DNA from: Marmoricola sp. URHB0036
Lineage (GTDB): Bacteria; Actinomycetota; Actinomycetes; Propionibacteriales; Nocardioidaceae
Direction of reading: 5' to 3'
Length of the DNA stretch: 64,000 nucleotides
NCBI RefSeq assembly: GCF_000426045.1
Contig: NZ_AUEP01000010.1
Coordinates: 124,001-188,000 of the forward strand
Part shown: one piece after another, positions 1 to 28,642 of the stretch
How positions within the stretch are numbered: the stretch's first letter is position 1
Layout of the letters: each line of letters begins with the position of its first letter
Position numbers and translations under genes: made by a program
Notes under the pieces: generated by a model
Seen by the model: only the letters and a program-made list of their open reading frames with translations
Database searches by the model: none
Told to the model about the DNA's origin: nothing

Positions 1-1
1 G

Positions 2-1225: not shown

Positions 1226-1953
1226 GGCGCATCCGGGTCCTCGGCGTCGGCATGGGGCCGCAGCATGTCACCCCCGAGGTGGCGGAGGCGCTGCGCTCGG
1301 TCGACTACGTGCTGGCTGCCCAGAAGTCGTCGCAGGACGGGCTCCTCGAGGCCCGGCGCGAGATCTGCCGCGTGCACGGAGACGTGCCGTTGGTCGCCGT
1401 ACCCGACCCGGAGCGCGACCGGGACGCCCCGCGCGACTACCCGCGCGCGGTCGCGGACTGGCACGAAGCACGGGTGGCGGCGTACGAGCAGGTGCTCCTC
1501 GAGCGGCCCGGTGACGTCGCCTTCCTGGTGTGGGGTGATCCCTCGCTCTACGACTCGACCATCCGGATCGTCGAGTCGATCCACGCGCGTGGGCGGGCAC
1601 AGGTCGAGTACGACGTGCTGCCCGGCATCAGCGCCGTACAGCTGCTCGCCGCGCGTCACCGGATCGTGCTGCACGAGGTCGGTCGACCGCTGCACGTCAC
1701 CACCAGCCGGCTGCTCCGTGAGGCGCTGGAGACCGGCCAGGACAACATCGCGGTGCTGCTCAACGCCCGGCTGGAGCTCGACGGCCTCGAGGACTGGCAG
1801 ATCTGGTGGGGCGCCAACCTCGGTACGCCGGACGAGGCACTCGTCGCGGGTCGGGTCGGCGACGTCCTCGCCGAGATCGACACCGCCCGCGCGAAGGCGA
1901 AGGAAGCGGCCGGCTGGGTGATGGACATCTACCTGCTCAGGCGGGTGTCGTGA
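1222..1953 (+). CDS. cobF: Precorrin-6A synthase (deacetylating) CobF
   Basis: CobF is a SAM-dependent methyltransferase that methylates C-1 of precorrin-5 and releases acetate to give precorrin-6A. It belongs to the aerobic (late cobalt) pathway. The product is 243 aa, normal for CobF. It opens with the tetrapyrrole-methylase glycine loop '[12 protein letters not shown]' and has the '[10 protein letters not shown]' motif near residue 107 and '[14 protein letters not shown]' near 130. The GTG start at 1222 overlaps the cobN stop (GTGA), and its own TGA overlaps the GTG of cobQ. The presence of CobF, rather than CbiD/CbiG, supports the oxygen-dependent route here. Confidence 0.95.
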
Positions 1954-3380
1954 CCCGCGCGCTGCTCGTCGCCGGCACCACGTCAGACGCCGGCAAGAGC
2001 ATCGTCACCACCGGCCTGTGCCGAGCCTTCGCCCGTCGAGGCCTGAAGGTCGCCCCGTTCAAGTCGCAGAACATGTCCAACAACTCGATGGTGTGCATCG
2101 GTCCCGACGGCGCCGGTGCCGAGATCGGCCGCGCCCAGTGGATCCAGGCGATCGCGGCCGGCGCCGAGCCCGAGGCGGCGATGAACCCGGTGCTGCTCAA
2201 GCCAGGCAGCGACCGCCGCAGCCACGTCGTGGTGATGGGTCGTCCCGCCGGCGAGGTCGACGCCCGCGACTTCGTCGACGGTCGGCGGCGGCTCGCTCGT
2301 GCGGCGTACGACGCCTTCGACGACCTGACCTCGCGCTACGAGGTAGTCGTCGCAGAGGGGGCCGGCAGTCCCGCGGAGATCAACCTGCGGGAGAGCGACT
2401 ACGTGAACATGGGGCTGGCCCGGCACGCCGACATCCCGACCGTCGTGGTCGGGGACATCGACCGCGGGGGAGTGTTCGCGGCCATGTTCGGCACCGTCGC
2501 GCTGCTCTCGCCCGCCGACCAGGCGCTGGTCGCCGGCTTCGTGGTCAACAAGTTCCGCGGCGATGTCTCGCTGCTGGCACCGGGGCTCCGTGAGCTGTCG
2601 GAGCTCACCGGTCGACGCGTCTTCGGGACGCTGCCGTGGGACCCGTCGCTGTGGCTGGACTCCGAGGACGCGCTGGAGCTCGAGGGACGACGGTCCGGCG
2701 GTGGCGCCCGCAAGGTGGCGGTGATCCGGTTCCCGCGGATCAGCAACTTCACCGACGTGGACGCCCTCGGCCTGGAGCCCGACCTCGACGTGGTCTTCGT
2801 GTCCGACCCGCGCGCCCTCTCCGACGCCGACCTGGTGGTGCTGCCCGGGACGCGGGCGACCATCGCCGACCTCGACTGGATGCGGACGCGAGGGCTGGAC
2901 CGGGCCGTCCTCGAGCACGCCGCCTCCGGTCGCCCGGTGCTGGGGATCTGTGGTGGCTGCCAGATGCTCGGACGCGCCATCGCCGACCGCGACGGCGTCG
3001 AGGGCAGGCCCGGGACCCAGGTCGAGGGGCTGGGGCTGCTCGACCTCGACACCAGCTTCCGCGGCGAGAAGGTGCTGCGCGTGCACCGCCCGGCCGGCTA
3101 CGAGATCCATCACGGCCGCGTGGTCGGCTCGACGTCGGCGGGCGCCGTACGCGGGACGATGGTGCACGGCAGCCTGGAGGACGACGGCATCCGCGCGCTC
3201 TACCTCGCCGACGCCCTCGGTGTGGAGTCGAAGGCATCGTTCCCGGAGGCGCGGGAACGGCGGTTGGACCGGCTGGCCGAGCTCGTCGAGGAGCACCTCG
3301 ACGTCGAGGCGCTGCTCGACCTCGCCACCCACGGCGCCCCGCGTGGGTTGCCGGTGCTGCCGCCGGGAGCGGATCGGTGA
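1950..3380 (+). CDS. cobQ: Cobyric acid synthase CobQ
   Basis: CobQ amidates the b, d, e and g side chains of adenosylcobyrinic a,c-diamide, using glutamine and ATP, to give adenosylcobyric acid. The product is 476 aa with an N-terminal dethiobiotin-synthetase-like ATPase domain ('GTTSDAGKS' near residue 8, then '[11 protein letters not shown]') and a C-terminal class I glutamine amidotransferase domain with the nucleophile cysteine in '[11 protein letters not shown]'. The GTG at 1950 was chosen because it overlaps the cobF stop codon and gives the canonical N-terminus. An in-frame ATG further upstream at 1806 lies inside cobF. The 3' end overlaps cobK by 4 bp. Confidence 0.96.
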
Positions 3381-4096
3381 AGGTCCTGATCCTCGGCGGC
3401 ACCGCTGAGGCCCGCGCCCTGGCCGCCGCCCTCGACGACCGGGGCATCGCCGTGTTGTCGTCGCTGGCCGGGCGGGTCGCGCGCCCCCGGCTACCGGTCG
3501 GTGAGGTGCGGATCGGTGGCTTCGGCGGCGTCGCCGGCCTGCGGGCGTGCGCCCTCGGGTTCGACGCGGTGGTCGACGCCACCCACCCGTTCTCGGCCCG
3601 CATCTCCGCCAACGCTGCCGCCGCCTGCCATGACCTCCCGTTGCTCCGCCTGGCCCGGCCGGGGTGGTCAGGCGCGCCGTCGTGGACCTGGGCCGACTCG
3701 CACGAAGAGGCTGCTCTCGCAGCCGCACGCCTCGGCCGGCACCCGTTCCTGACCGTCGGCCGACAGGAGCTGGGTCGCTTCGTGAAGACGCTCGGCGACA
3801 CCCCGACATTGGCCCGGGTGGTCGACCCACCCGACCTGACGTTGCCCCCGGCGTGGACGGTCGTGCTGAGCCGGGGCCCCTACGTCCGCGAGGACGAGCT
3901 CGCCCTGATGCGCTGTCACGACGTCGACGTCCTGGTCACCAAGGACTCCGGCGGTACGCACACGCAGGCCAAGCTCGAGGCCGCCGCCGAGCTGGACCTC
4001 CCGGTGGTCGTCGTACGTCGTCCGCCGGCGCCCGACGGGGTCGAGACCGTGACCGACGTGGAGTCGGCCGTCGAGTGGGTGGAGGCGCGCCGATGA
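3377..4096 (+). CDS. cobK: Precorrin-6A reductase CobK
   Basis: CobK reduces precorrin-6A to dihydro-precorrin-6 with NADPH. The product is 239 aa, the usual CobK/CbiJ size. It begins '[19 protein letters not shown]', the nucleotide-binding loop of the family, and carries '[14 protein letters not shown]' near residue 74 and 'VTKDSGG' near 188. The GTG start at 3377 sits inside the cobQ stop (GTGA), and its stop is overlapped by the ATG of cobU, so the whole rightward run is translationally linked. CobK works directly downstream of CobF and upstream of CobL (14893). Confidence 0.95.
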
Positions 4097-4620
4097 AGGT
4101 CCTGGTCACCGGTGGTGTCAGGTCCGGCAAATCGCGGCACGCGGAGTCCTTGTTGGCCACCCGCCCGGACGTCACCTACGTCGCCCCCGGACCGACCGTC
4201 GCCGAGGACCCCGACCCGGACTGGGCAGCCCGCATCGCCGCCCACCAATCACGTCGCCCGGCCGGCTGGACGACACTGGAGTCGCGCGACCTGGTGGCTG
4301 CTCTCGCGACTCCCGGTCCGGTCCTGGTCGACTGCCTCGGCACCTGGCTGACCGCCCTCCTCGACGCCGCTGCGGCCTGGGACCTGCCCTCCCGCGAGGT
4401 GCACGACCTGCTCGACTCCGCGCTGGCTCCCGCCGCGTCGGCGCTGGCGGTGCATCCCGGGCCGGTCGTGCTGGTCACCAACGAGGTCGGGCTCGGCGTG
4501 GTGCCCGAGCACCGGTCCGGCCGCCTCTTCCGCGACCTGCTCGGCACCGTCAACCAGCGGCTCGCCGCCGAGTGCGACGAGGTGCACCTGGTCGTGGCCG
4601 GGCGGGTGCTCCAGCTCTGA
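4093..4620 (+). CDS. cobU: Adenosylcobinamide kinase / adenosylcobinamide-phosphate guanylyltransferase
   Basis: This bifunctional enzyme (CobU, called CobP in Pseudomonas) phosphorylates adenosylcobinamide and then transfers GMP to it, activating it for nucleotide-loop assembly by CobS. The product is 175 aa, the family size. It has the Walker A loop 'GGVRSGKS' at residues 7-14, the 'DCLGTWLT' segment, and '[20 protein letters not shown]' toward the C-terminus. The ATG at 4093 overlaps the cobK stop. It is the last gene of the rightward cobN-cobU run, and a perfect-arm hairpin follows 10 bp after its stop. Confidence 0.95.
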
Positions 4621-4630
4621 GGCCCGAACG

Positions 4631-4666
4631 CTACGTAGTCGGGTCCACGTGGACCCAACTACGTAG
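4631..4666. repeat. 36-bp near-perfect palindrome with CTACGTAG ends, 3' of cobU
   Basis: The arms CTACGTAGTCGGGTCCAC and GTGGACCCAACTACGTAG are reverse complements with one mismatched pair and no spacer. It begins 10 bp after the cobU stop between convergent transcription units, so it may act as a terminator for cobU. It lacks a T-run, which is common for terminators in high-GC actinobacteria. The same 8-bp word CTACGTAG closes a second hairpin at 4981-5014. Confidence 0.75.
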
Positions 4667-4785
4667 CACTCGTCGGGTGTGCCAGTGCCGACACACGGTC
4701 GCGGGTGTCAGCTGCAGTCGGCGCTGCGGCACGCCCGACAACACCAGCACCGCCGTCGCGCCGCCGCGACGTGCACGAGGGCTGG

Positions 4786-4928
4786 CGAACCGGTCGCAGT
4801 ACCTCGAGCCGGAGTACGCCCCGCGTCTGATCGGTCCGGGAGCCGGCGGCGTCGGCTATCTGCTCAAGGAGTCGGTCGCGGTCGCCGACGAGCTGGTGGA
4901 CGCCGCTCGTCGCGTCGCCGGAGGGGGG
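4786..4928 (+). pseudogene. Relic of a NarL/LuxR-type response-regulator receiver domain
   Basis: In the 386-bp gap between cobU and cobD one frame reads 'RSQYLEPEYAPRLI', then 'GAGGVGYLLKE', then 'DELVDAARRVAGGG'. This matches the end of the receiver domain in NarL-type regulators, where the consensus runs 'LSQY.E..YA..L...GAGGVGYLLK' followed by a '..L..A.RRVA.GG' helix. No aspartate pocket, DNA-binding helix-turn-helix or start codon is present around it, and the frame is lost on both sides. It is therefore a decayed fragment. It lies between two CTACGTAG hairpins, which may mark a replaced or deleted segment. The rest of 4667-4980 shows nothing else recognisable. Confidence 0.6.
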
Positions 4929-4980
4929 CGGCCGGGGCGCTCGAACCTGGAGCAGACGCAGTGGAGCAAGGAACCCGACG

Positions 4981-5014
4981 CTACGTAGACCTGCCAGGTG
5001 GAACGTCTACGTAG
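4981..5014. repeat. Hairpin with CTACGTAG arms overlapping the cobD stop codon
   Basis: CTACGTAGAC at 4981-4990 and GTCTACGTAG at 5005-5014 form a perfect 10-bp stem with a 14-nt loop. The TAG stop of leftward cobD (bases 5009-5007) lies inside the right arm. It is placed to terminate the leftward cbtB-cobD operon. It shares the CTACGTAG word with the hairpin after cobU. Confidence 0.75.
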
Positions 5015-5948
5015 TGCTCCTCGACGAGCGCGCGCGGCTGCCGGCCACCAGCACGGCCACCAGCACGGCGACCAGCGCGGCACCGACGTCGACACGGCGG
5101 GCGAGCTCGACGGATCGCTGGATGTCGCGTGGCTCGGCCGCCCGGCCGGAGCCGAGGACGGCGCGGTGCTCGGTGCGGTCGCCGTAGGTGTTCTGCCCGC
5201 CGAGGCGGATGCCCAGGGCGCCAGCGAAGGAGGCCTCGACCGGGCCGGCGTTGGGGGAGGGGTGGGCGGAGGCGTCTCGTGCCCACGTGGCCAGGGCCGA
5301 TCGGGGAGAGGGACCGAGCAGGGCAGCGAGCACGGCAGTGACGCGCGCGCCGGGCAGGTTGAGCAGGTCGTCGAGCCGGGCGGAGGCCCAGCCGAACTCG
5401 AGGTAGCGCGAGCTGCGGTGGCCGACCATGGCGTCGAGGGTGTTGGTGGCGCGGTAGGCAAGCAGCCCGGGTACGCCGAACAGCGCCCCGACGACCAGCG
5501 GAGAGACCACCGCGTCGGAGGTGTTCTCGGCGACCGACTCCACGACCGCACGTGCGACCTCTCCCTCGTCCAGCGACGTGGTGTCGCGGCCGACGAGGTG
5601 GGTGAGTCGTTGTCGCGCCCCCGGGAGGTCACCCGAGGCGAGCAGCTCGGAGACGGCCAGGGCTTCTCGCTCGAGCGAGGCACCGCCGAGGACGGCCCAG
5701 GTGGCGAGGGCGGTGCCGAGCACCGGGCGGCGGCGCTCGAGAAGAAGGCCGGCGACCGCAGCCCCACCGACCAGGGTGGCGGTGTAGGCAACGCCGCGTT
5801 GCCGCGTCGGTGCGTAGCCCAGCCTCTCCAGCGACGCTGCGAGCCGACCGAAGCCCGCGACCGGGTGATAGCTCGCGGGATCGGGGATGACGCGGTCGGC
5901 CACGAACCCGACGAGGAGCCCGAGCACGCGGCTCATGTCGGTGCTCAT
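5007..5948 (-). CDS. cobD: Adenosylcobinamide-phosphate synthase CobD/CbiB
   Basis: This membrane enzyme joins adenosylcobyric acid to (R)-1-amino-2-propanol (phosphate), making adenosylcobinamide (phosphate). The product is 313 aa, normal for the family. It has hydrophobic stretches at residues 8-20, about 54-70 and at the C-terminus, and the motifs 'DPASYHPVAGFGR', 'VVESVAENTSDAVVSPL', 'NTLDAMVGHRS', 'AHPSPNAGPVEASFAGAL' and 'RLGGQNTYG'. An alternative start is the ATG at residue 5. It lies 10 bp downstream of cobS and ends the cbtB-cbtA-cobT-cobS-cobD operon. Confidence 0.95.
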   Translation of the reverse strand: MSTDMSRVLGLLVGFVADRVIPDPASYHPVAGFGRLAASLERLGYAPTRQRGVAYTATLVGGAAVAGLLLERRRPVLGTALATWAVLGGASLEREALAVSELLASGDLPGARQRLTHLVGRDTTSLDEGEVARAVVESVAENTSDAVVSPLVVGALFGVPGLLAYRATNTLDAMVGHRSSRYLEFGWASARLDDLLNLPGARVTAVLAALLGPSPRSALATWARDASAHPSPNAGPVEASFAGALGIRLGGQNTYGDRTEHRAVLGSGRAAEPRDIQRSVELARRVDVGAALVAVLVAVLVAGSRARSSRSTT

Positions 5949-5958
5949 GTGAGGACCA

Positions 5959-6714
5959 TCATGTGAGCGCCAGCAGCAACGTGGCGAGGGCTAGCTCGAT
6001 CGCCGCGCCGTACACGTCACCGGTGACCCCGCCGAAACGGCGCAGGGCGCGACGTACGAGCAGCACGACGACGAGCCCGGCGACCACGACGGCGAGGAGG
6101 CCGCGCCAGGCCTCGAGGTGGGCCCAGTCCGCGACGAGGGCGACGAGCACCGCGGTGACCAGCCAGGACACGACCGCGGCGAGGGGCGCAACGGTGCCGC
6201 TGTGCGGCTGCCCCAACCCGTCGGGCCGGGCCGCGCGGACCCCCCGCAGGCAGGTGATCGAGAGCGCGACCCGGGAGGCGCAGACGAGGAGGCCGGCGAG
6301 CGTGGCGCCTCGCGGCGTCTGGAACAGGGTGGCCAGTGAGGCTGCCTGGACCCCGGCCACGACGACGGTGGCGATGACGCCGGCCGGTCCGGACGTGCCG
6401 GACTTCATCACCGCCAGCGACCGTTCGGCGTCGTAGGACGCGGTCAGGCCGTCGGCGGTGTCGGACAGGCCGTCCCAGTGGATCGCTCGGCTGCCCGCGG
6501 CCAGGGCGCCGACGGCCAGGATGCCGACTGCGAGCAGGTTGAGCCCGGCCCGTTCACCGACCCAGCCGACGAGACCGACCAGGATCCCGAGCGGCAGCAC
6601 CGCGACCGGTGCCAGCAGCATGGCCCGGCCGGCGGTGCGGGCATCGACGACCCGAGGAGCCGCGACCGGGATCGCCGTGAGGGTCCCGACTGCGAGTCGC
6701 CAGGCGTCACGCAT
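5959..6714 (-). CDS. cobS: Adenosylcobinamide-GDP ribazoletransferase CobS
   Basis: CobS (CobV) is the integral-membrane cobalamin synthase that joins adenosylcobinamide-GDP to alpha-ribazole (phosphate). The product is 251 aa and strongly hydrophobic, with about six membrane segments. It has the family's 'LTAIPVAAP' near the N-terminus, the acidic 'HWDGLSDTADGL' motif near residue 77 and 'KSGTSGPAGVIATV' further on. The ATG at 6714 (MRDAWRL) was chosen because it overlaps the end of cobT by 8 bp and gives the usual length. The frame stays open upstream, but only inside cobT. It acts together with CobU and CobT on nucleotide-loop assembly. Confidence 0.94.
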   Translation of the reverse strand: MRDAWRLAVGTLTAIPVAAPRVVDARTAGRAMLLAPVAVLPLGILVGLVGWVGERAGLNLLAVGILAVGALAAGSRAIHWDGLSDTADGLTASYDAERSLAVMKSGTSGPAGVIATVVVAGVQAASLATLFQTPRGATLAGLLVCASRVALSITCLRGVRAARPDGLGQPHSGTVAPLAAVVSWLVTAVLVALVADWAHLEAWRGLLAVVVAGLVVVLLVRRALRRFGGVTGDVYGAAIELALATLLLALT

Positions 6715-7744
6715 CCGGCATGAGGTCGGCGAGCAGCGCGACGTCGCGCAGCACGCTGATCGCGCTGCGGACGACGGGTACGGCGGCGACCGCACCGCTG
6801 CCCTCGCCCAGGCGCATGCCGAGGTCGAGGATCGGCGCGAGGCCGAGCTTGTCGAGGGCCAGCGACTGGGCCGGCTCGGTGGAGCGGTGCCCGGCAGCGA
6901 ACCAGGCGGCCGCACCGGGCGCGATGCGGTCGGCGGTGAGGGCGCAGGCGACCGAGATGACGCCGTCGAGCAGCACCGGCACACCCGCCTCCGCGGCAGC
7001 CACGAGGTAGCCGGTGGCAGCCGCCAGGTCGGCGCTGCCCAGGGCGGTCAGGCACTCGATCGGGTCAGCGGTGCGGTCGCCCGCACGCGCCAGCGCCTGC
7101 TCGATGACGGACTCCTTGTGCGCGAGCGCAGCCTCGTCGATGCCGGTCCCGCGGCCGGTGACCTCGCGAGCGGGCAGCCCGAGGCCGGCTGCGATCAGTG
7201 CGGCTGCCGGGGTGGTGTTGCCGATGCCCATGTCACCGCCGAGCAGCAGCTGTGCACCGGCGTCGATCTCCTCACGAGCGACCCGGCGACCGACCTCGAG
7301 CGCCTGCGTGGTCTCGTCGGCGCTCAGGGCATCCTCGAGGTGAATGGCCCCACTGCTGCGGCGTACCTTGTGCGCCCGCACGTCCTCGGGGACATCGATC
7401 AGGTCCTCGTCGACACCGATGTCGAGCACCCGCACGTGCACGTCGTGCGCGGAGGCCAGGGCGTTGACGCCCGCCAGGCCGGCAACGAAGGTGCGCACCA
7501 TCGCGCCGGTGATGGCCGGGGGGTACGCCGAGACGCCGTGGGCCGCGACGCCGTGGTCGCCGGCGAAGATCACCAGCCGCACGTTGGTCAACGGCTCGGG
7601 CGGCACCACGCCCTGGGCACCAGCGATCCAGACAGCGAGGTCGCCGAGCCGTCCCAGGGCTCCGGCCGGAGTGGCCAGCCCGGCCAGTCGCGCTGCTGCC
7701 GCCGCGACCACGTCGGGGTCGGGCGGCCGGAGGACCGGGCTCAC
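6707..7744 (-). CDS. cobT: Nicotinate-nucleotide--dimethylbenzimidazole phosphoribosyltransferase CobT
   Basis: CobT activates the lower ligand by transferring phosphoribose from NaMN to 5,6-dimethylbenzimidazole, giving alpha-ribazole phosphate. The product is 345 aa with the family motifs 'FAGDHGVAAHGVSAYP', 'GGDMGIGNTTPAAAL', 'DGVISVACAL', 'AGHRSTEPAQ' and the catalytic-glutamate motif 'LGEGSGA' near the C-terminus. The GTG at 7744 is chosen because it overlaps the cbtA stop (GTGA). An upstream in-frame ATG lies inside cbtA. Its ligand is supplied by BluB, encoded nearby at 12030. Confidence 0.95.
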   Translation of the reverse strand: MSPVLRPPDPDVVAAAAARLAGLATPAGALGRLGDLAVWIAGAQGVVPPEPLTNVRLVIFAGDHGVAAHGVSAYPPAITGAMVRTFVAGLAGVNALASAHDVHVRVLDIGVDEDLIDVPEDVRAHKVRRSSGAIHLEDALSADETTQALEVGRRVAREEIDAGAQLLLGGDMGIGNTTPAAALIAAGLGLPAREVTGRGTGIDEAALAHKESVIEQALARAGDRTADPIECLTALGSADLAAATGYLVAAAEAGVPVLLDGVISVACALTADRIAPGAAAWFAAGHRSTEPAQSLALDKLGLAPILDLGMRLGEGSGAVAAVPVVRSAISVLRDVALLADLMPDA

Positions 7745-8535
7745 AGGCTGGCCGCCAGAGCGCGACGCGCGGCGATGCTCTGCTCGCGGCTGTAGAGGCG
7801 CCCGACGAGCCCGGACAGGACCGCGCCCAGCACCGCCCACATGGTGGCGCTGGTGATCAGCGAGGCGCGGCGGAAGTACCACAGCGTGTCCGCCGGGAAG
7901 TCGCCGACCTCGTTGACGGTCGGCATCAGCTGGCCGGCGATGACCATCACCACGACGAACAGCCCGACGCCGGCGAGGAGGCCGGTGTAGGTGCCGTAGT
8001 GGTCGCGCACGCGCAGCGCGAGCATCGTCGAGAGGACGGTGACGACGATCGAGATCACCATGAAGACGAAGTACTCCGTCGTACGCGACCCGATGGTGTC
8101 GGCATTGCCGATGGCCGGTGGGTTGGCGGGGTACTTCAGGAACGGCACCAGGATGACCGCGACCCAGCCCAGGAGCGCGACCAGGGCGGTCGACTGGCCA
8201 GGTGACAGGGCGCCGATGCGACCCAGGACACCGGCGGCGACCAGGGCGACGATGCCGCCGAGGGCGATCCCGATGGCGAGGGTGCCGGTGAGCAGACCCC
8301 AGGTGCGCTGGTTGTGGCGGGAGACGACCGTGCCGCCCTCGTCGTGGTGGTGCCCCGCCTCGGCCCCGGCGTCACCGGAGTGGGTGTGCGTGGCAGGTGC
8401 GTCCTCGTGGGACTCCTCGTAGTTGATCGCCGTCTGGATCTGGGGTTCGGCGACGAAGTAACCGACCGCGAAGGCGGCGATGCCGGCGAACAGGCCGGCG
8501 AGGAGGCCACGGACCAGGAAAGCCCGGGCAGTCAT
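7741..8535 (-). CDS. cbtA: Cobalt transporter subunit CbtA
   Basis: CbtA is a predicted cobalt permease with about five or six membrane segments that works with the small CbtB. The product is 264 aa. An N-terminal helix (residues 8-28) is followed by a His-rich loop ('ATHTHSGDAG', 'GHHHDEGG', residues 48-67), then membrane helices around 80-105, 118-135, 155-175, 188-205 and 235-250, with 'PFLKYPANPPAIG' and 'GQLMPTVNEV' between them. The His-rich loop is typical and may bind metal. It starts 7 bp after cbtB and overlaps cobT by 4 bp. The cobalamin riboswitch just upstream of cbtB supports a role in B12-linked cobalt uptake. Confidence 0.92.
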   Translation of the reverse strand: MTARAFLVRGLLAGLFAGIAAFAVGYFVAEPQIQTAINYEESHEDAPATHTHSGDAGAEAGHHHDEGGTVVSRHNQRTWGLLTGTLAIGIALGGIVALVAAGVLGRIGALSPGQSTALVALLGWVAVILVPFLKYPANPPAIGNADTIGSRTTEYFVFMVISIVVTVLSTMLALRVRDHYGTYTGLLAGVGLFVVVMVIAGQLMPTVNEVGDFPADTLWYFRRASLITSATMWAVLGAVLSGLVGRLYSREQSIAARRALAASL

Positions 8536-8542
8536 CGGGTGC

Positions 8543-8755
8543 TCAGTGGCAGGGGTAGCCGAGGAGGTGGCGTCCGTCGTGGACCCACTCGTGGATGGCG
8601 TTGCCCGACGGGATCGAGAAGGCTCCCTGGTCGGCGCTCACGAAGACGATCGCCAGGACGGCCAGCAGACCGAAGAAGAGCGCCCACGGGGCGAGCTCGG
8701 CGAGCGGGATCGAGGGGACCTCGACGGTGGGTGCTGCTGCTGTCGTCTGCGACAT
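8543..8755 (-). CDS. cbtB: Cobalt transporter subunit CbtB
   Basis: CbtB is a small single-span partner of CbtA. The product is 70 aa with a membrane helix at residues 25-42 and the family signature 'HEWVHDGRHLLGYPCH' at the extreme C-terminus, whose histidines and cysteine are thought to bind metal. The ATG at 8755 is preceded by a strong Shine-Dalgarno (CCTGAGGAGGACACAC). In-frame upstream codons belong to the riboswitch leader. It is the first gene after the riboswitch at 8800-8906. Confidence 0.93.
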   Translation of the reverse strand: MSQTTAAAPTVEVPSIPLAELAPWALFFGLLAVLAIVFVSADQGAFSIPSGNAIHEWVHDGRHLLGYPCH

Positions 8756-8799
8756 GTGTGTCCTCCTCAGGGATTCGTGCGTCCCTGCTTGTTGGGTTG

Positions 8800-8906
8800 A
8801 AGTGCGGACCCTCGGGTCTGACTTCACCGCTCCTGGTCGGAGGCGGTGTCACAGTAGCGCGACTGTGCCGGAGTCCCACCGGCTTCCTCGTGCCCGCGTC
8901 GTCAGC
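8800..8906 (-). promoter_or_regulatory. Cobalamin (AdoCbl) riboswitch upstream of cbtB
   Basis: Read on the minus strand the leader contains the B12-box core GGAAGCCGGTGGGACTCCGG, followed by CACAGTCGCGCTACTGTGAC and the 3' conserved AGTCAGACCCGAGGG. Together these are diagnostic of the cobalamin aptamer. It starts at the TGA of cobBC and ends about 45 nt before the cbtB start, so it can act inside a longer transcript. It probably controls cbtB-cbtA-cobT-cobS-cobD, repressing when adenosylcobalamin is plentiful. Exact borders are estimated. Confidence 0.92.
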
Positions 8907-11403
8907 CTAGGGCATCCGGTGGCCCGGCGGACAGGCCGTCGAGCCACGATTTCACGGCGGTCAGCAGCCGCTGCGTCTGCTCGCCCGGTCGTACGGCGAT
9001 CCGAACCCACGACCCGTCGAGTCCCGGGAAGGTGTCGGCCCGTCGTACGGCGATTCCGGCCCGGCGCAGCGCGGCATGCCCACCCTCCCCGAGGCGGGCC
9101 AGCACGAAGGACGTGCTCGAGGCCACGGTGGGGATGCCGAGGCCGTCGAGGGCGTCGACCAGCTCGCTCCGCCAGCCCGCGACCGCCTCGGCTCGACGCT
9201 CCGACTCGGCCCGGGCGGCGTCGGAGGCGCAGGCGCGGATCGCCGCGGCGGCCGTCGTCGACACCGACCACGGCGACTGCTCGCGGCGCAGGTCGGCGAT
9301 CACGTCGGCCGGCCCGACGGCGTACCCGGCGCGGATCCCCGGGATCGACCAGTGCTTGGTCAGGCTGCGGATCACCAGGAAGCCGGGTGTGCCGATGACG
9401 GTCTCGGTCTCGCCCGGGACCGTGTCCATGAACGCCTCGTCGACGACGACCAGCCGTCCGGGTCGCGCGAGCCGTCGGAGCGTCTCGACAGGGTGCAGCA
9501 CGCCCGTGGGGTTGGTCGGATTACCGAGCACGACCAGGTCGGCGTCGTTCGGGACGGCCGTGGGATCCAGACCGAACGGATGGGCGAGCACCACCTCGGT
9601 GACGGGGTGCCCGGCCTGCTCGAGGGCGGCGTGCGGTTCGGTGAACTGCGGATGCACCACCACCGGCCGGCGCCACGGTCGGGCCCGCGCGACCAGCGTG
9701 AACGCCTCGGCCGCCCCGGCAGTGGCGATGACCTCCGCGCGAGGTCGTCCATGCCTGGCGGCGACCGCGTCCTCGGCTGCCGCTGGCGACGGGTAGTCAC
9801 CGACGGCGTCGAGGCTGTCCCGCAGCGTCTGCTCCAGCCACAGCGGCCGCGGTCCGGGGTAGACGTTGACGGCGAAGTCGAGCAGCCCCGCGTCCCGGAC
9901 CTCGGCGTCACCGTGGTGCCGCAACGGGTCACTCACAGTAGGTGGTCGAGCAGCCAGCGCCAGCGAGCGGTCAGTCGAGACCACCGGCCGCGTGCGTGGT
10001 CTCGACTGATCACTCGCTTCGCTCGCTGCTCGACCACCCAGGAAGGCGTGCGCTGCATCGGCGAACCGTTGAGCGAGCTGCGGGTGGCCGGCCCAGTGCA
10101 CGTGGAGGTACGACGCATGCAGGCTCGGGCCGGCGAACCCCACCGGCACGTCGTCGACCGACCAGGCGGGGACGGCACCGGCACGCGGCTCGACGTGCGT
10201 GCGGTGGAACTCGTGACCGGTGACCGTCTCACCCTCGCGGGTCAGCAGCGAGTCGGCCGGCGCCGTCACCGAGGGGTAGGACAGCGTCAGCCGTGGGGTC
10301 ATCCGGGCCGTCGCGGGCAACGAGCCGACCATCACGGCGTCGTCCACCGACCGGCACAGGTACAACAGTCCGGCGCACTCGGCCACCGTCGGCACGCCGG
10401 CCTCGATGGCAGCGTGCAGCTCGGCGCGCAGGGGAGCGTTCTCGCTGAGTCCCGGCGCGTGCACCTCGGGGAAGCCACCGCCGAGGTAGATGCCCGAGGT
10501 GCCCGGCGGCAGGGCCGTGTCCTCCAACGGGTCGAAGGTCGTGACCTCGCAGCCGGCCGCCCTCAGCAGCTCCTCGGTCTCGGTGTAGCGGAAGGTGAAG
10601 GCGCGCCCGCCCGCCATCGCGACGACCGGTCGCTCGGCATCGGTGGTTGAGGAGGGCCGCCAGACCCGTCTCGAAACCACGACTTCACGTTCCGGGTCCC
10701 ACGGCTCGCTCTCGAGGTCGGGAGCGGTCGAGGCCAGCTTGAGCACCGCCTCGAGGTCGATCGCCTCGGCCACCAGGTCGGCCAGGGCGTCGAGGGCGTG
10801 GGCGGCCTCGCCTCGTTCGGCGGCAGGCACCAGGCCGAGGTGGCGTGACGGTGCGCTGACCGCCTGGTCGCGACCGAGGGTGCCGAGCACCGGCAGGCTG
10901 ATCGAGTCGGCCACCTCGGCGGCGTGACGCGGGGAGCCGGCCTTGTTGAGGATCACGCCCGCGATCTCGACCGAGGGGTCGAAGGTCGCCATGCCGTGCA
11001 CGACGGCGCCGACGGAGCGGGAGGCGCGGGAGATGTCCACGACGAGGACGACCGGGGTCCTCGTGAGGGCGGCGACGTGGGCGGTGGAGGCGTAGCCCTG
11101 GGTACCGATGCGTCCGTCGTACAGGCCCATCACGCCTTCGACGACGGCGACGTCGGCGCCCCGGGCGCCGTGCAGCAGCAGCGGGACGATGCGCTCCTCG
11201 CCCACCAGGTGGGGGTCGAGGTTGCGGCCGGGACGGCGGCAGGCGAGGGCGTGGTAGCCGGGGTCGATGTAGTCGGGCCCGACCTTGTGGCCGCTGACGA
11301 CGTGCCCGGTGCGGGTGAGAGACGCCATCAGCCCGGTCGCGATCGTGGTCTTGCCCTGCCCGGTGGCGGGGGCAGCGACGACGATCCGGGGCAGGCTGGT
11401 CAT
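8902..11403 (-). CDS. cobB: CobB-CobC fusion: hydrogenobyrinic acid a,c-diamide synthase + aminotransferase-like L-threonine-phosphate decarboxylase
   Basis: This 833-aa protein joins two enzymes. Residues 1-465 are CobB: the ATPase loop 'PATGQGKTT' (12-20), 'GHKVGPDYIDPGYH', 'GVMGLYDG', and a glutaminase domain with the nucleophile in 'VAECAGLLYL'; it amidates the a and c side chains before cobalt insertion. Residues about 500-833 are CobC-like, a PLP fold with 'VVLGNPTNPTG', 'VVVDEAFMD' and the PLP lysine in 'IRSLTKHWSIPGIRAGY', making aminopropanol phosphate for CobD. The linker (about residues 455-488) is read from a nested palindrome at 9941-10038. A second REP-like word at 10642-10680 is read in frame in the CobB part. 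The ATG at 11403 lies 10 bp after cobO. Confidence 0.93.
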   Translation of the reverse strand: MTSLPRIVVAAPATGQGKTTIATGLMASLTRTGHVVSGHKVGPDYIDPGYHALACRRPGRNLDPHLVGEERIVPLLLHGARGADVAVVEGVMGLYDGRIGTQGYASTAHVAALTRTPVVLVVDISRASRSVGAVVHGMATFDPSVEIAGVILNKAGSPRHAAEVADSISLPVLGTLGRDQAVSAPSRHLGLVPAAERGEAAHALDALADLVAEAIDLEAVLKLASTAPDLESEPWDPEREVVVSRRVWRPSSTTDAERPVVAMAGGRAFTFRYTETEELLRAAGCEVTTFDPLEDTALPPGTSGIYLGGGFPEVHAPGLSENAPLRAELHAAIEAGVPTVAECAGLLYLCRSVDDAVMVGSLPATARMTPRLTLSYPSVTAPADSLLTREGETVTGHEFHRTHVEPRAGAVPAWSVDDVPVGFAGPSLHASYLHVHWAGHPQLAQRFADAAHAFLGGRAASEASDQSRPRTRPVVSTDRSLALAARPPTVSDPLRHHGDAEVRDAGLLDFAVNVYPGPRPLWLEQTLRDSLDAVGDYPSPAAAEDAVAARHGRPRAEVIATAGAAEAFTLVARARPWRRPVVVHPQFTEPHAALEQAGHPVTEVVLAHPFGLDPTAVPNDADLVVLGNPTNPTGVLHPVETLRRLARPGRLVVVDEAFMDTVPGETETVIGTPGFLVIRSLTKHWSIPGIRAGYAVGPADVIADLRREQSPWSVSTTAAAAIRACASDAARAESERRAEAVAGWRSELVDALDGLGIPTVASSTSFVLARLGEGGHAALRRAGIAVRRADTFPGLDGSWVRIAVRPGEQTQRLLTAVKSWLDGLSAGPPDALG
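9941..10038. repeat. Nested inverted repeat inside cobBC, encoding the inter-domain linker
   Basis: The outer arms GGTGGTCGAGCAGC (9941-9954) and GCTGCTCGACCACC (10025-10038) are exact reverse complements. The inner arms TCAGTCGAGACCAC (9971-9984) and GTGGTCTCGACTGA (9996-10009) are also exact. The 98-bp structure contains no stop in the cobBC frame and codes for a low-complexity Arg/Ser/Ala linker (including 'SRPRTRPVVSTDRS'). The word GGTGGTCGAGCAGC resembles Nocardioides REP ends, so this looks like an element inserted between, or generated with, the fused genes. Confidence 0.85.
10642..10680. repeat. REP-like element read in frame within the CobB domain
   Basis: GGTGGTTGAGGAGG at the left end and CGTCTCGAAACCAC at the right form an imperfect inverted repeat of the common actinobacterial type (GTGGTTTCGAGAC...CTCCTCAACCACC). 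It is read through by cobBC as 'VVSRRVWRPSSTT', just before the glutaminase domain. It sits in the ATPase/glutaminase connector, where an insertion is likely to be tolerated. Confidence 0.65.
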
Positions 11404-11413
11404 GAGGAGGGGG

Positions 11414-12028
11414 CTACCACTCGATGCCCCGCTGGCCCTTCTGCCCGGCGTCCATGGGGTGCTTGACCTTGGTCATCTCGGTGACCAGGTCGGCCACCTC
11501 GATGAGGCGGGGGTCGGCGTTGCGGCCGGTGATCACGACGTACTGCCGGCCCGGACGGTCACGCAGGGTCTGTACGACGTCCTCGACGTCGACCCAGCCC
11601 CACTTCATCGGGTAGGTGAACTCGTCGAGCACGTAGAGGTCGTGGGTCTCCTCGGCCAGCCGCCGCTTGATCTCGGCCCAGCCCTCGGCCGCCTCGGCTT
11701 CGTGGTCCGCCTCGTCGCCGGCTTTGCGCGACCACGACCAGCCGGCGCCCATCTTGTGCCACTCGACCGGGCCGCCCTCGCCGTTCTCCTTGTGCAGCTC
11801 GCCGAGACGTTCGAGCACGGTCTGCTCGCCGATGCGCCACTTGGCCGACTTCACGAACTGGAAGACGCCGACGTTCCAGCCCTGGTTCCAGCTGCGGATC
11901 GCCAGCCCGAACGCGGCGGTCGACTTCCCCTTGCCGTCGCCGGTGTGCACCATCAGCAACGGCCGGTTGCGGCGCTGGCGCGTGGTCAGTCCGTCGTCGG
12001 GCACGACGAGCGGTTGTCCCTTGGGCAT
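11414..12028 (-). CDS. cobO: Cob(I)yrinic acid a,c-diamide adenosyltransferase CobO
   Basis: CobO (BtuR/CobA-type) transfers the 5'-deoxyadenosyl group of ATP to the reduced cobalt of the corrinoid. The product is 204 aa with the P-loop 'GDGKGKST' at residues 30-37, 'NVGVFQFVKS', 'VLDEFTYPMKWGWV' and 'VVITGRNADPRLIEVADLVTEM', all characteristic of the family. The ATG at 12028 follows the bluB stop almost directly. It lies between bluB and cobBC in a leftward operon headed by the chelatase gene, matching its place just after cobalt insertion. Confidence 0.95.
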   Translation of the reverse strand: MPKGQPLVVPDDGLTTRQRRNRPLLMVHTGDGKGKSTAAFGLAIRSWNQGWNVGVFQFVKSAKWRIGEQTVLERLGELHKENGEGGPVEWHKMGAGWSWSRKAGDEADHEAEAAEGWAEIKRRLAEETHDLYVLDEFTYPMKWGWVDVEDVVQTLRDRPGRQYVVITGRNADPRLIEVADLVTEMTKVKHPMDAGQKGQRGIEW

Positions 12029-12029
12029 G

Positions 12030-12680
12030 TCAGTGGCTTCCGTACTTCTCGTGGTGGATGGCCTCGGCGAGGGGTCGTTTCTGCCGCCAGCCGTGGCGCT
12101 CGAGGTCGGGGACCTCCTCGAGGTGGGTCACCGGGCCGACGCACAGCCAGGCGATCGGCCGCACTCGTTCAGGGATGGCGAGCAGGTCGCGCAGGAACTC
12201 CTCGCGGTAGAAGGACACCCAGCCGACGCCCAGTCCCTCGGCGGTGGCGGCCAGCCAGAGGTTCTGGATCGCCAGGACGGCGGAGTAGAGCCCGGCGTCA
12301 TCGATGGCGTGCCGGCCGAGCACCTGGGTGCCGCCGCGGTCGGGGTCGTAGGTGACCACCACCGCGAGGGCGGACTCCAGGACGCCCTCGACCTTGATGC
12401 GTCCGAAGGTCTGCTGGCGCTCCTCCGGCAGCGACGCGGCGTACGACGCCCGCTCGGTCGCGACGTGCTCCTGGAACCGCTCACGCGTCGCGGTGTCGCG
12501 GACCAGGACGAAGTCCCACGGCTGGCTGTGCCCGACGCTGGGAGCCGAGTGGGCCGCCTGCAGGACCCGCTCGAGCACGTCGGGGTCGAGGGGGTCGCTG
12601 CTGAACTCGGCGCGTACGTCGCGCCGCCGGGCGATGACGTCGTAGAGGTCGGCGCTGAGCGTGCTGGGTGGCGCGTTCAT
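12030..12680 (-). CDS. bluB: 5,6-dimethylbenzimidazole synthase BluB
   Basis: BluB is a flavin-destructase of the nitroreductase fold that turns FMNH2 and O2 into dimethylbenzimidazole, the lower ligand of B12. The product is 216 aa with 'RRRDVRAEFSSDPLD', 'AAHSAPSVGHSQPWDF', the long 'VVVTYDPDRGGTQVLGRH' segment and 'GVGWVSFYREEFLRDLLAIP', all typical of BluB rather than ordinary nitroreductases. The ATG at 12680 overlaps the chelatase stop (ATGA). The oxygen requirement fits the aerobic cobalamin pathway, and CobT at 6707 uses its product. Confidence 0.94.
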   Translation of the reverse strand: MNAPPSTLSADLYDVIARRRDVRAEFSSDPLDPDVLERVLQAAHSAPSVGHSQPWDFVLVRDTATRERFQEHVATERASYAASLPEERQQTFGRIKVEGVLESALAVVVTYDPDRGGTQVLGRHAIDDAGLYSAVLAIQNLWLAATAEGLGVGWVSFYREEFLRDLLAIPERVRPIAWLCVGPVTHLEEVPDLERHGWRQKRPLAEAIHHEKYGSH

Positions 12681-14716
12681 GCGACGCGCTCGTGGACCGC
12701 GCCGGTGAGAGCGGTGGCGCTGACCTCGGTCACCGCGACGTGCTCGGCGTGCAGGTGCCGCGCGAGCTCGCCGGCCAGCCCCATCCGGAACGACCCCGAC
12801 TCGCAGTCGACGACGAGCGCGGCGATGTCGCGACGGGCCAGGTGGTCGGCGGCGAGACGCGAGCGGCGTACGGCATCGGCGCCGGCGGTCGCGCGACCGT
12901 CGGTGACGAGCACCAGCAGCGGACGACGACGCGGGTCGCGGACCCGCTCGACCTCGAGGACACGGGCGGACTCGAGCAGGCCCTCGGCCAGCGGCGTACG
13001 TCCTCCGGCAGGGAGCTCGCCCAGGCGGGCCGCGGCGATCTCGACCGAATGGGTCGGTGGCAGCACCAGGTCGGCGCGGTCGCCGCGGAAGGTGACCAGG
13101 CCGACCTTGTCGCGCCGCTGGTAGGCGTCGAGGAGCAACGAGAGGATGGCGGTCTTGACCTGCTCCATGCGCTTGCGGGCGGCCATCGAGCCGGACGCGT
13201 CGACGCAGAACAGGATCAGGTTGGCCTCGTGGCCCTCGCGGGTCGCGACCCGGAGATCGTCGCCGCGGAACCGCATCGGGCCGCCGCGACGGCCGCGCTC
13301 GTGCTGGTGAGCGGCAGCCGCACGGAGGGTCTCGGTCAGGTCGATGGACCCGGTGCCGTCGACCGGGCGGTGGGCACCGACCCGGCGACCCCACTCGGTG
13401 ATCGCCCGGCTGCGCTTCCCGGCCGCACCACCGCCCGTGCCGCGGACCGTGAACAGCCTGGTGCGGTAGGGATCTCCCGCCCCGACCGTCGTCGACTGGT
13501 CACTGCCCTGGGGGAGACCTGCGGACGACTTCTCCTCCTGCGGTGCGTCATACGAATCGTGGTCTTGAGGCCCCGATTCGTATGACGCATCGTCCGGTGT
13601 CTCGCGGGTGTCGCTGCTCGAGGGGTCCGGGCCGTCGTCGTCCTCGAGCGGCTGGTCACCCGGGTCGTCGCTGGGTGGCGGATCGGTCGGTTCCGGGGGT
13701 TCGGGCTCGTCGTCGCCGAGGATCTGGTCGAGCAGGTCCTCGTCGAGACCGGGGGCGTCGAACGGGTTGCGGCGACGACGGTGGGGGAGCGCGAGGCGGG
13801 CGGCGGCCCGGATGTCGGCGCGGGTCACCTCGGCCCGGTCGTTCCAGGCCGCGTGGGCCATCGCGGCCCGGGCGGTGACGATGTCGGCGCGCATCCCGTC
13901 GACCTCGAACGCGGCGCACACCTCGGCGATCTTGAGCAGCGCCTCGTCGCTCAGTCGCACCTTCCCGACCAGCGACTGGGCCGCGAGGATGCGCTCGGTG
14001 AGCAGCTTCTCCGGCTCGGCGTACTCCGCTGCGAACGCGTCCGGGTCGTTGTCGTAGGCCATTCGCCGTCGTACGACCTCGACGCGCAGGGCCGGCTCAC
14101 GCGGGGCGGAGACCTCGACCGTCAGGCCGAACCGGTCGAGCAGCTGGGGGCGGAGCTCGCCCTCCTCGGGGTTCATGGTGCCGACCAGGACGAAGCGGGC
14201 GGCGTGCTCGACCGAGACCCCGTCGCGCTCGACGGTCGACCGTCCCATGGCGGCGGCGTCGAGCAGGAGGTCGACGAGGTGGTCGTGCAGCAGGTTGACC
14301 TCGTCGACGTACAGGATCCCGCGGTGGGCACGGGCCAGCAGGCCGGGCTCGTACTCCGTGCGGCCCTCGGACAGCGCCCGCTCGAGGTGCAGCGACCCGA
14401 GCACGCGGTCCTCGGTGGCGCCGACCGGCAGCTCCACGAGACGCACCGGTCGGGTCTCGGTCGAGGCGTCGGCCCCGAACGGACCGTCGGGCGAGAGCGG
14501 GGAGGACTCGCGGGGGTCGGTGGAGAAGCGGTCGCCGGCGATCACCTCGATCGGGGGGAGTACGGCGGCCAGGGCGCGCACGATCGTCGACTTCGCGGTG
14601 CCCTTCTCGCCGCGCACGAGCACCCCGCCGACCTCGGGCGAGATCGTCGTCAGCACAAGGGCGAGCGCCATGTCGTCGGATCCGACAACGGCACTGAAAG
14701 GAAACTGCTGTGGCAT
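12677..14716 (-). CDS. ChlI-ChlD fused AAA+/VWA subunit of cobaltochelatase
   Basis: This 679-aa protein is the ATPase motor expected to partner CobN. Residues 1-330 are a ChlI-like AAA+ domain with Walker A 'GEKGTAKS' (36-43), Walker B 'GILYVDEVNLL' and sensor 'LVGTMNPEEGELRPQLLDRF'. A long acidic, proline-rich linker (about 340-420) follows. The C-terminal half is a ChlD/VWA domain with the MIDAS motif 'DASGS' and 'LVTDGRATAG'. Family knowledge: in actinobacteria this type replaces CobS/CobT. The linker is partly encoded by a perfect palindrome (13544-13589). A cobalamin riboswitch lies just upstream, and 'GGGAGCCTCC' precedes the ATG. bluB overlaps its stop. Confidence 0.9.
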   Translation of the reverse strand: MPQQFPFSAVVGSDDMALALVLTTISPEVGGVLVRGEKGTAKSTIVRALAAVLPPIEVIAGDRFSTDPRESSPLSPDGPFGADASTETRPVRLVELPVGATEDRVLGSLHLERALSEGRTEYEPGLLARAHRGILYVDEVNLLHDHLVDLLLDAAAMGRSTVERDGVSVEHAARFVLVGTMNPEEGELRPQLLDRFGLTVEVSAPREPALRVEVVRRRMAYDNDPDAFAAEYAEPEKLLTERILAAQSLVGKVRLSDEALLKIAEVCAAFEVDGMRADIVTARAAMAHAAWNDRAEVTRADIRAAARLALPHRRRRNPFDAPGLDEDLLDQILGDDEPEPPEPTDPPPSDDPGDQPLEDDDGPDPSSSDTRETPDDASYESGPQDHDSYDAPQEEKSSAGLPQGSDQSTTVGAGDPYRTRLFTVRGTGGGAAGKRSRAITEWGRRVGAHRPVDGTGSIDLTETLRAAAAHQHERGRRGGPMRFRGDDLRVATREGHEANLILFCVDASGSMAARKRMEQVKTAILSLLLDAYQRRDKVGLVTFRGDRADLVLPPTHSVEIAAARLGELPAGGRTPLAEGLLESARVLEVERVRDPRRRPLLVLVTDGRATAGADAVRRSRLAADHLARRDIAALVVDCESGSFRMGLAGELARHLHAEHVAVTEVSATALTGAVHERVA
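13544..13589. repeat. Perfect 16-bp inverted repeat inside the chlID linker
   Basis: TGCGTCATACGAATCG at 13544-13559 and CGATTCGTATGACGCA at 13574-13589 are exact reverse complements around a 14-nt spacer. It is read in frame by the chelatase gene as 'DASYESGPQDHDSYDAP' in the acidic linker between the AAA+ and VWA domains. Its composition (AT-rich arms in a 70% GC gene) suggests an inserted palindromic element. Confidence 0.85.
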
Positions 14717-14751
14717 GGAGGCTCCCGCTCGTCACCAGCTAACACGGCGGC

Positions 14752-14873
14752 GCGAGGCCGGTCTTCGGACTTCCGTGACTCCCGATCGTCACGGTCACCG
14801 CAGCGGGCCTGTGCCGGAGTTTCACCGGCTTCCCGATTCTCCCCTCACGGGGCACCTCGTGCCTGTCGTCAGT
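14752..14873 (-). promoter_or_regulatory. Cobalamin riboswitch upstream of the chelatase-bluB-cobO-cobBC operon
   Basis: The minus strand carries GGGAAGCCGGTGAAACTCCG, then GGCACAGGCCCGCTGCGGTGACC and the 3' element AGTCCGAAGACCGGCC. These are the B12-box, the central core and the conserved P8-type end of cobalamin aptamers. The aptamer ends about 35 nt before the chelatase ATG. The Shine-Dalgarno lies within that short stretch, so control of translation initiation is plausible. On the other side, cobL starts rightward only 20 bp away. Confidence 0.95.
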
Positions 14874-14892
14874 CACGATAGCGTCAACCGTC

Positions 14893-16113
14893 GTGGCCCA
14901 GACCATGGGTGAGTCCCTCCCCTCGTCCCTGCTCGTCGTCGGCATCGGTGCCGATGGCTGGAGCGGGCTGTCCGAGGTCGCCCGCGAGCGGATCGGCGCC
15001 GCCGAGGTGCTGGTCGCCGGCCCCCGGGTGCAGGCGCTGGTCCCCGAGGTCGCGGGACAGGTGCGCGAGGAGCTGCCCTCGCCGCTGCGGCCCGGGTTGC
15101 GCGAGCTGATGGCGTCGTACGCCGCACGCAGCGTGGTCGTCGTCGCCAGTGGCGACCCGATGGTCTCGGGCATCGGCAGCACGCTGGTCGACCTGTTCGG
15201 GCCCGAGGCGGTGGAGGTCCTGCCGGGCGTCTCGTCGGTGGCCCTCGCCCGGGCGCGGATGCGCTGGTCGGCGGAGTCGAGCCAGGTGGTCTCGCTCGTC
15301 GCCCGTGACCCGCACCTGTTGCTGCGCCAGCTCGCGCCGGGACATCGCGTGCTGCTGCTGTCCTCCGACGAGACCACCCCGGCCTTCGTGGCGGCGCTGT
15401 TGACCTCCTACGGCTACGGTGCCTCTCGCGTGGTCGTGCTCGGTGACCTCGGCTCGGCCGAGGAGTCGCGCATCGAGGGGATCGCCTCGACGTGGTCGGC
15501 GTCGTCCCCGCGACTCAACGTCCTGGCGCTGGAGCTGGACGGACCCGTCATCGGCTCGTGGGCGGCCGGGCTGCCCGACGACGCCTACGGCAACGACGGC
15601 CAGCTGACCAAGCGCGACCTGCGGGCCGGTGCCCTGGCGCGGCTGGCTCCGCAACCGGGCCAGCTGCTCTGGGACGTCGGTGCGGGCGCCGGGTCCGTCG
15701 GCATCGAGTGGATGCGCGCGCACCCGCGGTGCCGGGCCATCGCCGTCGAGGGAGACGAGGACCGCGCCACGCAGATCGGGTTCAACGCGCGGCACCTGGG
15801 TGTCCCGCACCTCGAGGTCGTGCACGGCCGCGCACCCGCCGTTCTGGCCGACCTGCCCGACCCGGACGCCATCTTCGTCGGTGGCGGTGCGACCGAGCCC
15901 GGCCTCCTCGAGACCTGCCTGGCGCGGCTCGGTCCCGGCGGGCGGTTGGTGGTGCACGGCGTCACCCTGGAGACCGAGACGCTGCTGGCCGAGCTGTACG
16001 CCGAGCACGGCGGTGAGCTCACCCGCCACTCCGTCGAGCGGGCAGCACCGATCGGGTCGTTCACCGGCTGGACCCCGGCGCGAGCCGTGACGATGTGGGC
16101 GGTCTCGACGTGA
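14893..16113 (+). CDS. cobL: Precorrin-6Y C5,15-methyltransferase (decarboxylating) CobL
   Basis: CobL methylates C-5 and C-15 of precorrin-6B and decarboxylates the C-12 side chain to give precorrin-8X. The 406-aa protein is the usual CbiE-CbiT fusion. The N-terminal tetrapyrrole methylase (about 1-200) has 'VVGIGADGWSGLS' and 'VVASGDPMVSGIGSTL'. The C-terminal CbiT-like SAM domain has 'LWDVGAGAGSVGIEWMR' and 'IFVGGGATEPGLLE'. The start is a GTG at 14893; an ATG four codons later (14905) is equally possible. No riboswitch core is seen on its own strand. Its stop overlaps the GTG of cobM. Confidence 0.95.
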   Translation: MAQTMGESLPSSLLVVGIGADGWSGLSEVARERIGAAEVLVAGPRVQALVPEVAGQVREELPSPLRPGLRELMASYAARSVVVVASGDPMVSGIGSTLVDLFGPEAVEVLPGVSSVALARARMRWSAESSQVVSLVARDPHLLLRQLAPGHRVLLLSSDETTPAFVAALLTSYGYGASRVVVLGDLGSAEESRIEGIASTWSASSPRLNVLALELDGPVIGSWAAGLPDDAYGNDGQLTKRDLRAGALARLAPQPGQLLWDVGAGAGSVGIEWMRAHPRCRAIAVEGDEDRATQIGFNARHLGVPHLEVVHGRAPAVLADLPDPDAIFVGGGATEPGLLETCLARLGPGGRLVVHGVTLETETLLAELYAEHGGELTRHSVERAAPIGSFTGWTPARAVTMWAVST

Positions 16114-28549: not shown

Positions 28550-28642
28550 CCCTGCTCCTGTCCTCGGGTACGGCACCGAGTCTGCCGGACCCGCGGTGAG
28601 GTCGGGGCGGGCTGTGTCGGAGGTCTCCTCCAGCGAGCTCCC

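Follow-up and report, generated by a model that had tools for sequence, protein, structure and literature searches.

How does the linker of a two-domain enzyme come to be encoded by a palindrome? The question is raised by cobBC, a gene on the minus strand (8902..11403) of a 64,000-nucleotide stretch of the genome of Marmoricola sp. URHB0036 (contig NZ_AUEP01000010.1, positions 124,001 to 188,000), hereafter the window, whose own numbering is used throughout. The gene fuses hydrogenobyrinic acid a,c-diamide synthase (CobB) to a CobC-type pyridoxal 5′-phosphate (PLP) enzyme, and the junction of the two parts is encoded by a nested palindrome of 98 bp (9941..10038, minus strand). An initial annotation of this DNA had proposed that a mobile palindrome bridged or created the fusion. 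From sequence comparison we consider it highly probable that the linker instead arose when a selfish palindromic repeat, dispersed through the genome, inserted in frame into a cobBC gene that was already fused.

The gene is a single open frame of 833 aa with an ATG start, as the initial annotation had read it, and its reading as an a,c-diamide synthase joined to a PLP-type enzyme was also right. The product fits the model NF053748 (bifunc_CobBC) over residues 4-817 at 1212.3 bits (curated cut-off 950), with the domain order and near full-length match of that family, and differs in that its linker is coded by a repeat pair. The CobB part (residues 1 to ~452; 10048..11403, minus strand) is matched by NF002204 at residues 5-437 and by TIGR00379 at residues 6-450; the CobC part (residues ~490 to 833; 8905..9936, minus strand) is matched by NF005915 at residues 494-817. 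An AlphaFold2 model of the whole protein (alignment of n = 40 sequences including its own) is graded confident, with a mean predicted local distance difference test score (pLDDT) of 87.5 and a predicted template modelling score (pTM) of 0.61. Residues 463-498, which make up most of the palindrome-coded linker, have pLDDT below 50 and are predicted to be disordered. Residues 250-255, at a second repeat word within CobB, are likewise below 50.

The palindrome codes residues 456-488 and is built of two ~45-bp units in inverted orientation, each of the form GGTGGTCGAGCAGCGAGCG...TCAGTCGAGACCAC. As the gene reads, the first unit (44 bp; 9995..10038, minus strand) codes GGRAASEASDQSRPR; the second (45 bp; 9941..9985) itself lies on the plus strand, and the gene strand reads it as VVSTDRSLALAARPP. 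The two perfect 14-bp arm pairs described in the initial annotation are exact: the outer arms are GGTGGTCGAGCAGC at 9941-9954 and its complement at 10025-10038, and the inner arms, TCAGTCGAGACCAC at 9971-9984 and GTGGTCTCGACTGA at 9996-10009, sit within a 23-nt pair that is 91% complementary. Against 100 mononucleotide shuffles, the 98-bp piece has a far more stable fold (z −13.6). A chance palindrome is rejected on the exact arms, the shuffles and the fold z-score. The second word that had been called in the CobB frame holds up as well and is placed at 10640..10682 (minus strand), where it is of a related GGTTGAG type and codes VVVSRRVWRPSSTTD, in frame, in a variable segment of CobB. Its 34-base core is matched once in the window at ≤3 mismatches, and 100 dinucleotide shuffles gave no match.

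The palindrome was sought elsewhere in the genome, as had been suggested at the outset, and proved to be dispersed. A search of the window's own genome with the linker repeat gave 122 matches, and the halves of the linker match copies elsewhere at 92-100% identity over ~41-51 bp among the best matches listed. The unit (~42-45 bp; 98 bp as a pair), or its close GGTTGAG variant, occupies 66 merged places in the genome stretches fetched, a lower bound made up of the places listed by the search and the copies found in those stretches, with the word at 10640-10682 excluded. Each copy in a tandem array is counted in the 66, and independent insertions are fewer. By the calls of a home-made gene caller (at loci L087, L101 and L103 the gene extends past the end of the stretch fetched), 51 places are intergenic, 13 lie inside called genes and 2 lie at gene ends, in a genome of ~70% G+C; 90% of the window is called coding. 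Copies are depleted in genes (binomial p ~5e-41, a value too small since tandem-array copies were counted singly), as expected if most in-gene insertions are removed. The 5′ flank of the repeat reads CWA: among 40 distinct flanks, A stands at −1 in 32, A or T at −2 in 33 and C at −3 in 26. At loci L085 and L098 contigs of the assembly end in or beside copies: C9 ends inside a 45-bp copy and C6 a few bases past a partial one. The repeat probably breaks the assembly, and the copy counts are therefore lower bounds.

All 13 in-gene places are in frame and free of stops, 12 of them of the GGTCGAG type and one of the GGTTGAG variant. The genes concerned code for CobN (two places), two ChsH2-type OB-fold proteins, an RNase H/phosphatase, an Lhr helicase, a ribonucleotide reductase (which we take to be B12-dependent), the small subunit of methylmalonyl-CoA mutase (MutA), a flavin monooxygenase, ArgD, DnaX, NadB and CobBC. 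Five of the six frames are open in the commonest repeat variants, and 8 of the 13 GGTCGAG-type arms are read in the single frame that gives GGRAASEASDQSRP (five exact, three near variants; p 0.001 against even use). The remaining arms give VVEQRA.. (two), VVSTD.. (two) and SGLDYP.. (one), and a fourteenth in-gene arm, in CobN, is of the GGTTGAG type. Six of the in-gene arms (at L094, L099, L101, L110 and L113 and in CobBC) code the tryptic peptide AASEASDQSR. Family models span the insertion in CobN (both sites), ArgD, NadB, the RNase H/phosphatase, the Lhr helicase, MutA, DnaX, the monooxygenase and CobBC. In the reductase, the insert is found beyond the Pfam matches; the Pfam matches of the two OB-fold proteins flank the insert on one or both sides, none crossing it, and same-genus homologs align on both sides.

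Several of the in-gene insertions look recent when compared with homologs in five genomes of the same genus (G017, G012, G003, G008 and G013; such labels denote the genomes compared, G000 being the window's own). The insert at the second CobN site is missing in 5/5 homologs, that of ArgD in 5/5 (which hold 2-8 other residues there), that of NadB in all 4 homologs found (with other residues at the site in G013) and that of the monooxygenase in 5/5, all distant homologs (44-48% identical). DNA was compared at three sites; in nadB the own genome has extra bases, relative to G017, directly before ttctgggagaag. An AlphaFold2 model of ArgD built on six sequences was poor (pLDDT 56.4), and the ArgD insert was placed by alignment, ahead of a KVFF stretch. 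Variable loops of some relatives carry what look, by sequence, like peptides coded by other repeats (for example CobN and a carboxylase subunit in G013, MutA in G017).

The age of the fusion was approached by searching 148 genomes for CobB and CobC. Forty-nine loci were read, comprising our own, 44 fused relatives and four split loci; one contig-cut locus (G036) and five in which both matches share one open frame that was not fetched (G094, G107, G124, G134, G140) were left out. The 44 relatives with one open CobB-CobC frame come from two families, and the five nearest to the window in the tree are all fused, with linkers that differ. Strains with separate genes, which the initial annotation had proposed to look for, were found in the window's own family: in G002, G010, G028 and G088 cobB and cobC are split and overlapping and have no linker. 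In a quick IQ-TREE phylogeny of CobB plus CobC (Shimodaira–Hasegawa-like approximate likelihood ratio support only, rooted on the other family), which holds chosen fused or adjacent loci and excludes far-apart ones such as those of G092, G132 and G138, the four split loci branch among fused ones, with 3 changes in all. The fusion is therefore most simply the older state, by parsimony and not by proof, and it probably predates the palindrome. Among 80 named loci, 30 are fused (some may overlap with the 44 relatives) and 8 have matches in different frames. Fused named genera include Nocardiopsis, Mycolicibacter, Janibacter, Tessaracoccus and Microbispora, the linkers of several being short, and the best named identities are to Nocardioides (75, 73 and 73%, best segment). 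The linkers of G017 and G012, two of these five near relatives in the tree, resemble worn copies of a similar repeat, and the clade to which the window belongs may have inherited a repeat from its ancestor. At two split loci (L063, L064) the genes overlap as GTGGATGA, a possible cobC start inside the end of cobB, which suggests translational coupling of cobB and cobC where the fusion is absent.

Thirty of the 44 fused relatives entered a census in which each linker was searched against the genome it came from (limits E 1e-5 and 1e-4 for the first eight genomes, 1e-6 for the later ones). The first eight genomes were chosen for repeat-like linkers; then came the rest of the fused relatives in the window's family whose linkers have ≥26 residues, plus two from the other family. 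In 12 of the 30, a count for this census and not a rate for all fused relatives, the CobBC linker holds a repeat of which the same genome has three or more other copies (G041, G076, G003, G006, G019, G039, G013, G014, G016, G004, G087, G091); G015 has two further copies and G099 has one. Control CobB segments, one for each of the first eight genomes, matched only themselves among the matches listed (8/8). Pairwise comparison of 14 repeat-bearing linkers, our own included, sorts them into about six sets: G000, G041, G076, G014, G019, G004 and G091; G003 and G016; G006 and G015; and G039, G013 and G087 each alone. The first of these is partly joined by short matches and may share one origin with the second. 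Most of the G041 linker copies a nested palindrome of ~163 bp that has many relatives. Those of G004 and G019 are partly simple repeats. In Nocardioides sp. AX2bis (L246) the linker exceeds 100 residues and consists of VVEERAPASVTRPP-like units in long tandem, in which a peptide coded by a repeat has apparently been amplified; the units are close to VVEERAPASVSKP, one frame of the GGTTGAG-type repeat.

These comparisons bear on how the palindrome came to stand between CobB and CobC. Half of the initial proposal stood, in that a dispersed repeat family does form the linker; its other half, that the palindrome or an ancestor of it made the fusion by replacing the cobB stop and the cobC start, we now think improbable. 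Such an origin would fit the split, linker-free loci of G002, G010, G028 and G088, the matches in different frames in named Nocardioides (separated by 37 nt in N. lijunqiniae and by 28 nt in N. litoris, for example) and the worn repeats that the G017 and G012 linkers seem to hold, which would be expected of a repeat ancestral to the clade. The fusion, however, occurs in two families and many actinobacterial genera, often with no palindrome or repeat in the linker; the count of 44 fused relatives, the named loci and the nesting of the split loci in a tree of fused or adjacent loci all set this origin low.

A hairpin kept for its usefulness, slowing the ribosome between CobB and CobC or regulating the cluster as RNA or DNA, would account for the very stable fold, for its position between two domains and for the fold z ≤ −3 of 9 of the 14 repeat-bearing linkers, our own included. 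Many fused relatives, however, have neither a repeat with further copies nor a strong fold in the linker, and the same element stands between genes and inside other genes; we judge this explanation unlikely, if somewhat less so than the origin of the fusion from the palindrome. Growth of the linker by local duplication or slippage, with its likeness to a dispersed repeat a by-product of high G+C, seems the least plausible of the three and very improbable. Simple or tandem repeats in some relatives' linkers (G004, AX2bis) speak for it, but for the window the dispersed near-identical copies of both linker halves already argue against it, the control segments do not behave in this way, and the symmetry of the 98 bp lies far outside that of shuffles.

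We propose that a ~45-bp repeat resembling repetitive extragenic palindromic (REP) sequences, here as an inverted pair, inserted into a cobBC gene that was already fused. The repeat would spread mainly between genes, with most in-gene insertions lost. Copies that persist within genes would be those lying in frame, in loops or inter-domain linkers, where translation would turn them into short peptides, with a preference for the one frame whose product is small and polar. Insertion would be tolerated best in disordered linkers, the CobBC linker among them, which would explain why related genomes carry different palindromes in this linker. The proposal builds on the dispersal of the copies, their reading in frame, the several sites at which homologs lack the insert and the recurrence with different repeats; the coded peptides are presumably made and neutral.

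Several observations weigh against this proposal. Target-site duplications were not found: according to where the repeat is taken to end, 0-2 of 46 and 0 of 15 copies have flanking direct repeats of ≥3 (0.3-1.0 and 0 expected). Nor was a Y1 transposase (PF01797) found in the own genome; 5 of 146 genomes have one, none of them G041, G076, G003 or G019. Transposition is unproven for these two reasons. We infer that the repeat does transpose, and the finding points to a mobiliser not yet identified. The other residues carried by the ArgD homologs and by NadB of G013 make these two inserts replacements or variable loops, not wholly clean insertions, and at the remaining in-gene sites the loop itself varies among same-genus homologs. 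In the census, 16 of the 30 linkers, including those of the near relatives G017 and G012, have no further copy among the matches listed (two G012 matches fall outside those listed, and G012 is counted as negative); a repeat is therefore not required in this linker. The 14 fused relatives outside the census mostly have short linkers or belong to the other family (G007, G082, G066, G074, G120, G104, G116, G118, G126, G144, G130, G112, G136, G146), and in 5 of the 14 repeat-bearing linkers, our own included, the fold falls short of z −3.

Further palindrome families occur in the window. Near cobBC, a chelatase-like gene with AAA and VWA domains (12677..14656, minus strand; Pfam AAA lid, Mg_chelatase and VWA) carries in frame a palindrome of a family we call F2 (13538..13595, minus strand), which codes PDDASYESGPQDHDSYDAPQ between the AAA and VWA parts. 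Three of the 16 genome places of F2 are in genes, each in frame: the chelatase-like gene, a bacterial PH-domain protein and a carboxyltransferase. The cobalamin cluster (window 1-16000 and L087, G000:C9:120000-124000) is dense in in-frame repeats, with two in CobN, two sites in CobBC and one in the chelatase-like gene; this density may reflect ascertainment. Further copies lie in the methylmalonyl-CoA mutase and ribonucleotide reductase genes, which are presumably also B12-linked. Family F5 (~70-bp palindromes, CGGATAGTCCAGAACG...) is found at 32327-32397 and 36199-36273, at or overlapping gene ends; the second copy lies inside an MFS gene, one of 7 places in fetched stretches that cover part of the F5 places listed. 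Another family (CCGGACATGCGAATGT) occupies 28640-28718 and 62086-62162, with a core that by eye resembles the CobBC linker repeat of G006. A 48-bp palindrome at 4625-4672, with arms 88% complementary, has one further copy listed, at C9:97276.

The wider finding, as far as sequence can tell, is of protein-coding dispersed palindromes in an actinobacterium, with one enzyme linker repeatedly occupied by different repeats. Protein-coding palindromes are known chiefly from Rickettsia and, reportedly, by the title of a paper, from Wolbachia, with scattered in-frame miniature inverted-repeat transposable elements (MITEs) in enterobacteria and Neisseria, as far as the parts of the literature consulted go. 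None has been reported from actinobacteria in the open literature searched, which mostly leaves aside subscription papers. A high-G+C actinobacterium with 13 in-gene places, further families and a linker held by different repeats would allow a direct test of how selfish DNA shapes proteins: a single tryptic peptide could show translation in several proteins, and sister genomes provide before-and-after pairs. Our judgement is evenly balanced on a more general claim, that in Propionibacteriales short mobile palindromes independent of REP-associated tyrosine transposases (RAYTs) are a running source of protein sequence. On that claim they would insert in frame into core enzymes genome-wide, and different families would have settled independently in certain inter-domain linkers, that of CobBC being the clearest such landing site, so that selfish DNA would largely make up the length and sequence of linkers in these enzymes.

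Among known systems, REP sequences and their REPIN pairs, mobilised by RAYTs, are short palindromes, mostly intergenic, single or in inverted pairs, with a conserved 5′ flank. The window repeat shares these traits (its flank being CWA) and differs in having in-gene copies and no Y1 transposase in its genome. Its flank and its lack of target-site duplications are reminiscent of REPs mobilised by Y1 transposases, which act on single strands. A REP with a resident RAYT was rejected on the absence of PF01797 from the own genome and its rarity overall, and a MITE with target-site duplication on the flank analysis. Bacterial MITEs (ERIC/RU, Correia) are likewise small non-autonomous repeats that are sometimes in frame, and in parts of two sources those of enterobacteria (ERIC/RU) and Neisseria (Correia) are described as capable of in-frame fusion to host genes (PMC2229807, PMC10969869), so that the phenomenon is known beyond Rickettsia; the window unit is much shorter, has no target-site duplication and has no parent insertion sequence, Y1 being the only type searched. 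The closest parallel is the Rickettsia palindromic element (RPE). According to the sections of the reviews drawn on here, RPEs of ~150 bp form ten families, nearly half of the elements being inserted in reading frames (PMC10969869), with units of ~105-150 bp (PMC10969869, PMC2229807); an RPE-bearing guanylate kinase was made and active, with changed substrate affinity (PMC2229807), and the 2024 review calls it conceivable that proteins of other prokaryotes have evolved in a similar way (PMC10969869). The window repeat is ~45 bp long, its genome is actinobacterial with ~70% G+C, 51 of its 66 places are intergenic, and the CobBC linker is occupied by different repeats across relatives. We file it neither as an RPE, since the size differs, nor as REP/RAYT, since no transposase was found. 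With several dispersed palindrome families, some read in frame in conserved enzyme genes, it nevertheless works, by an analogy drawn with no RPE sequence compared, like an RPE in an actinobacterium.

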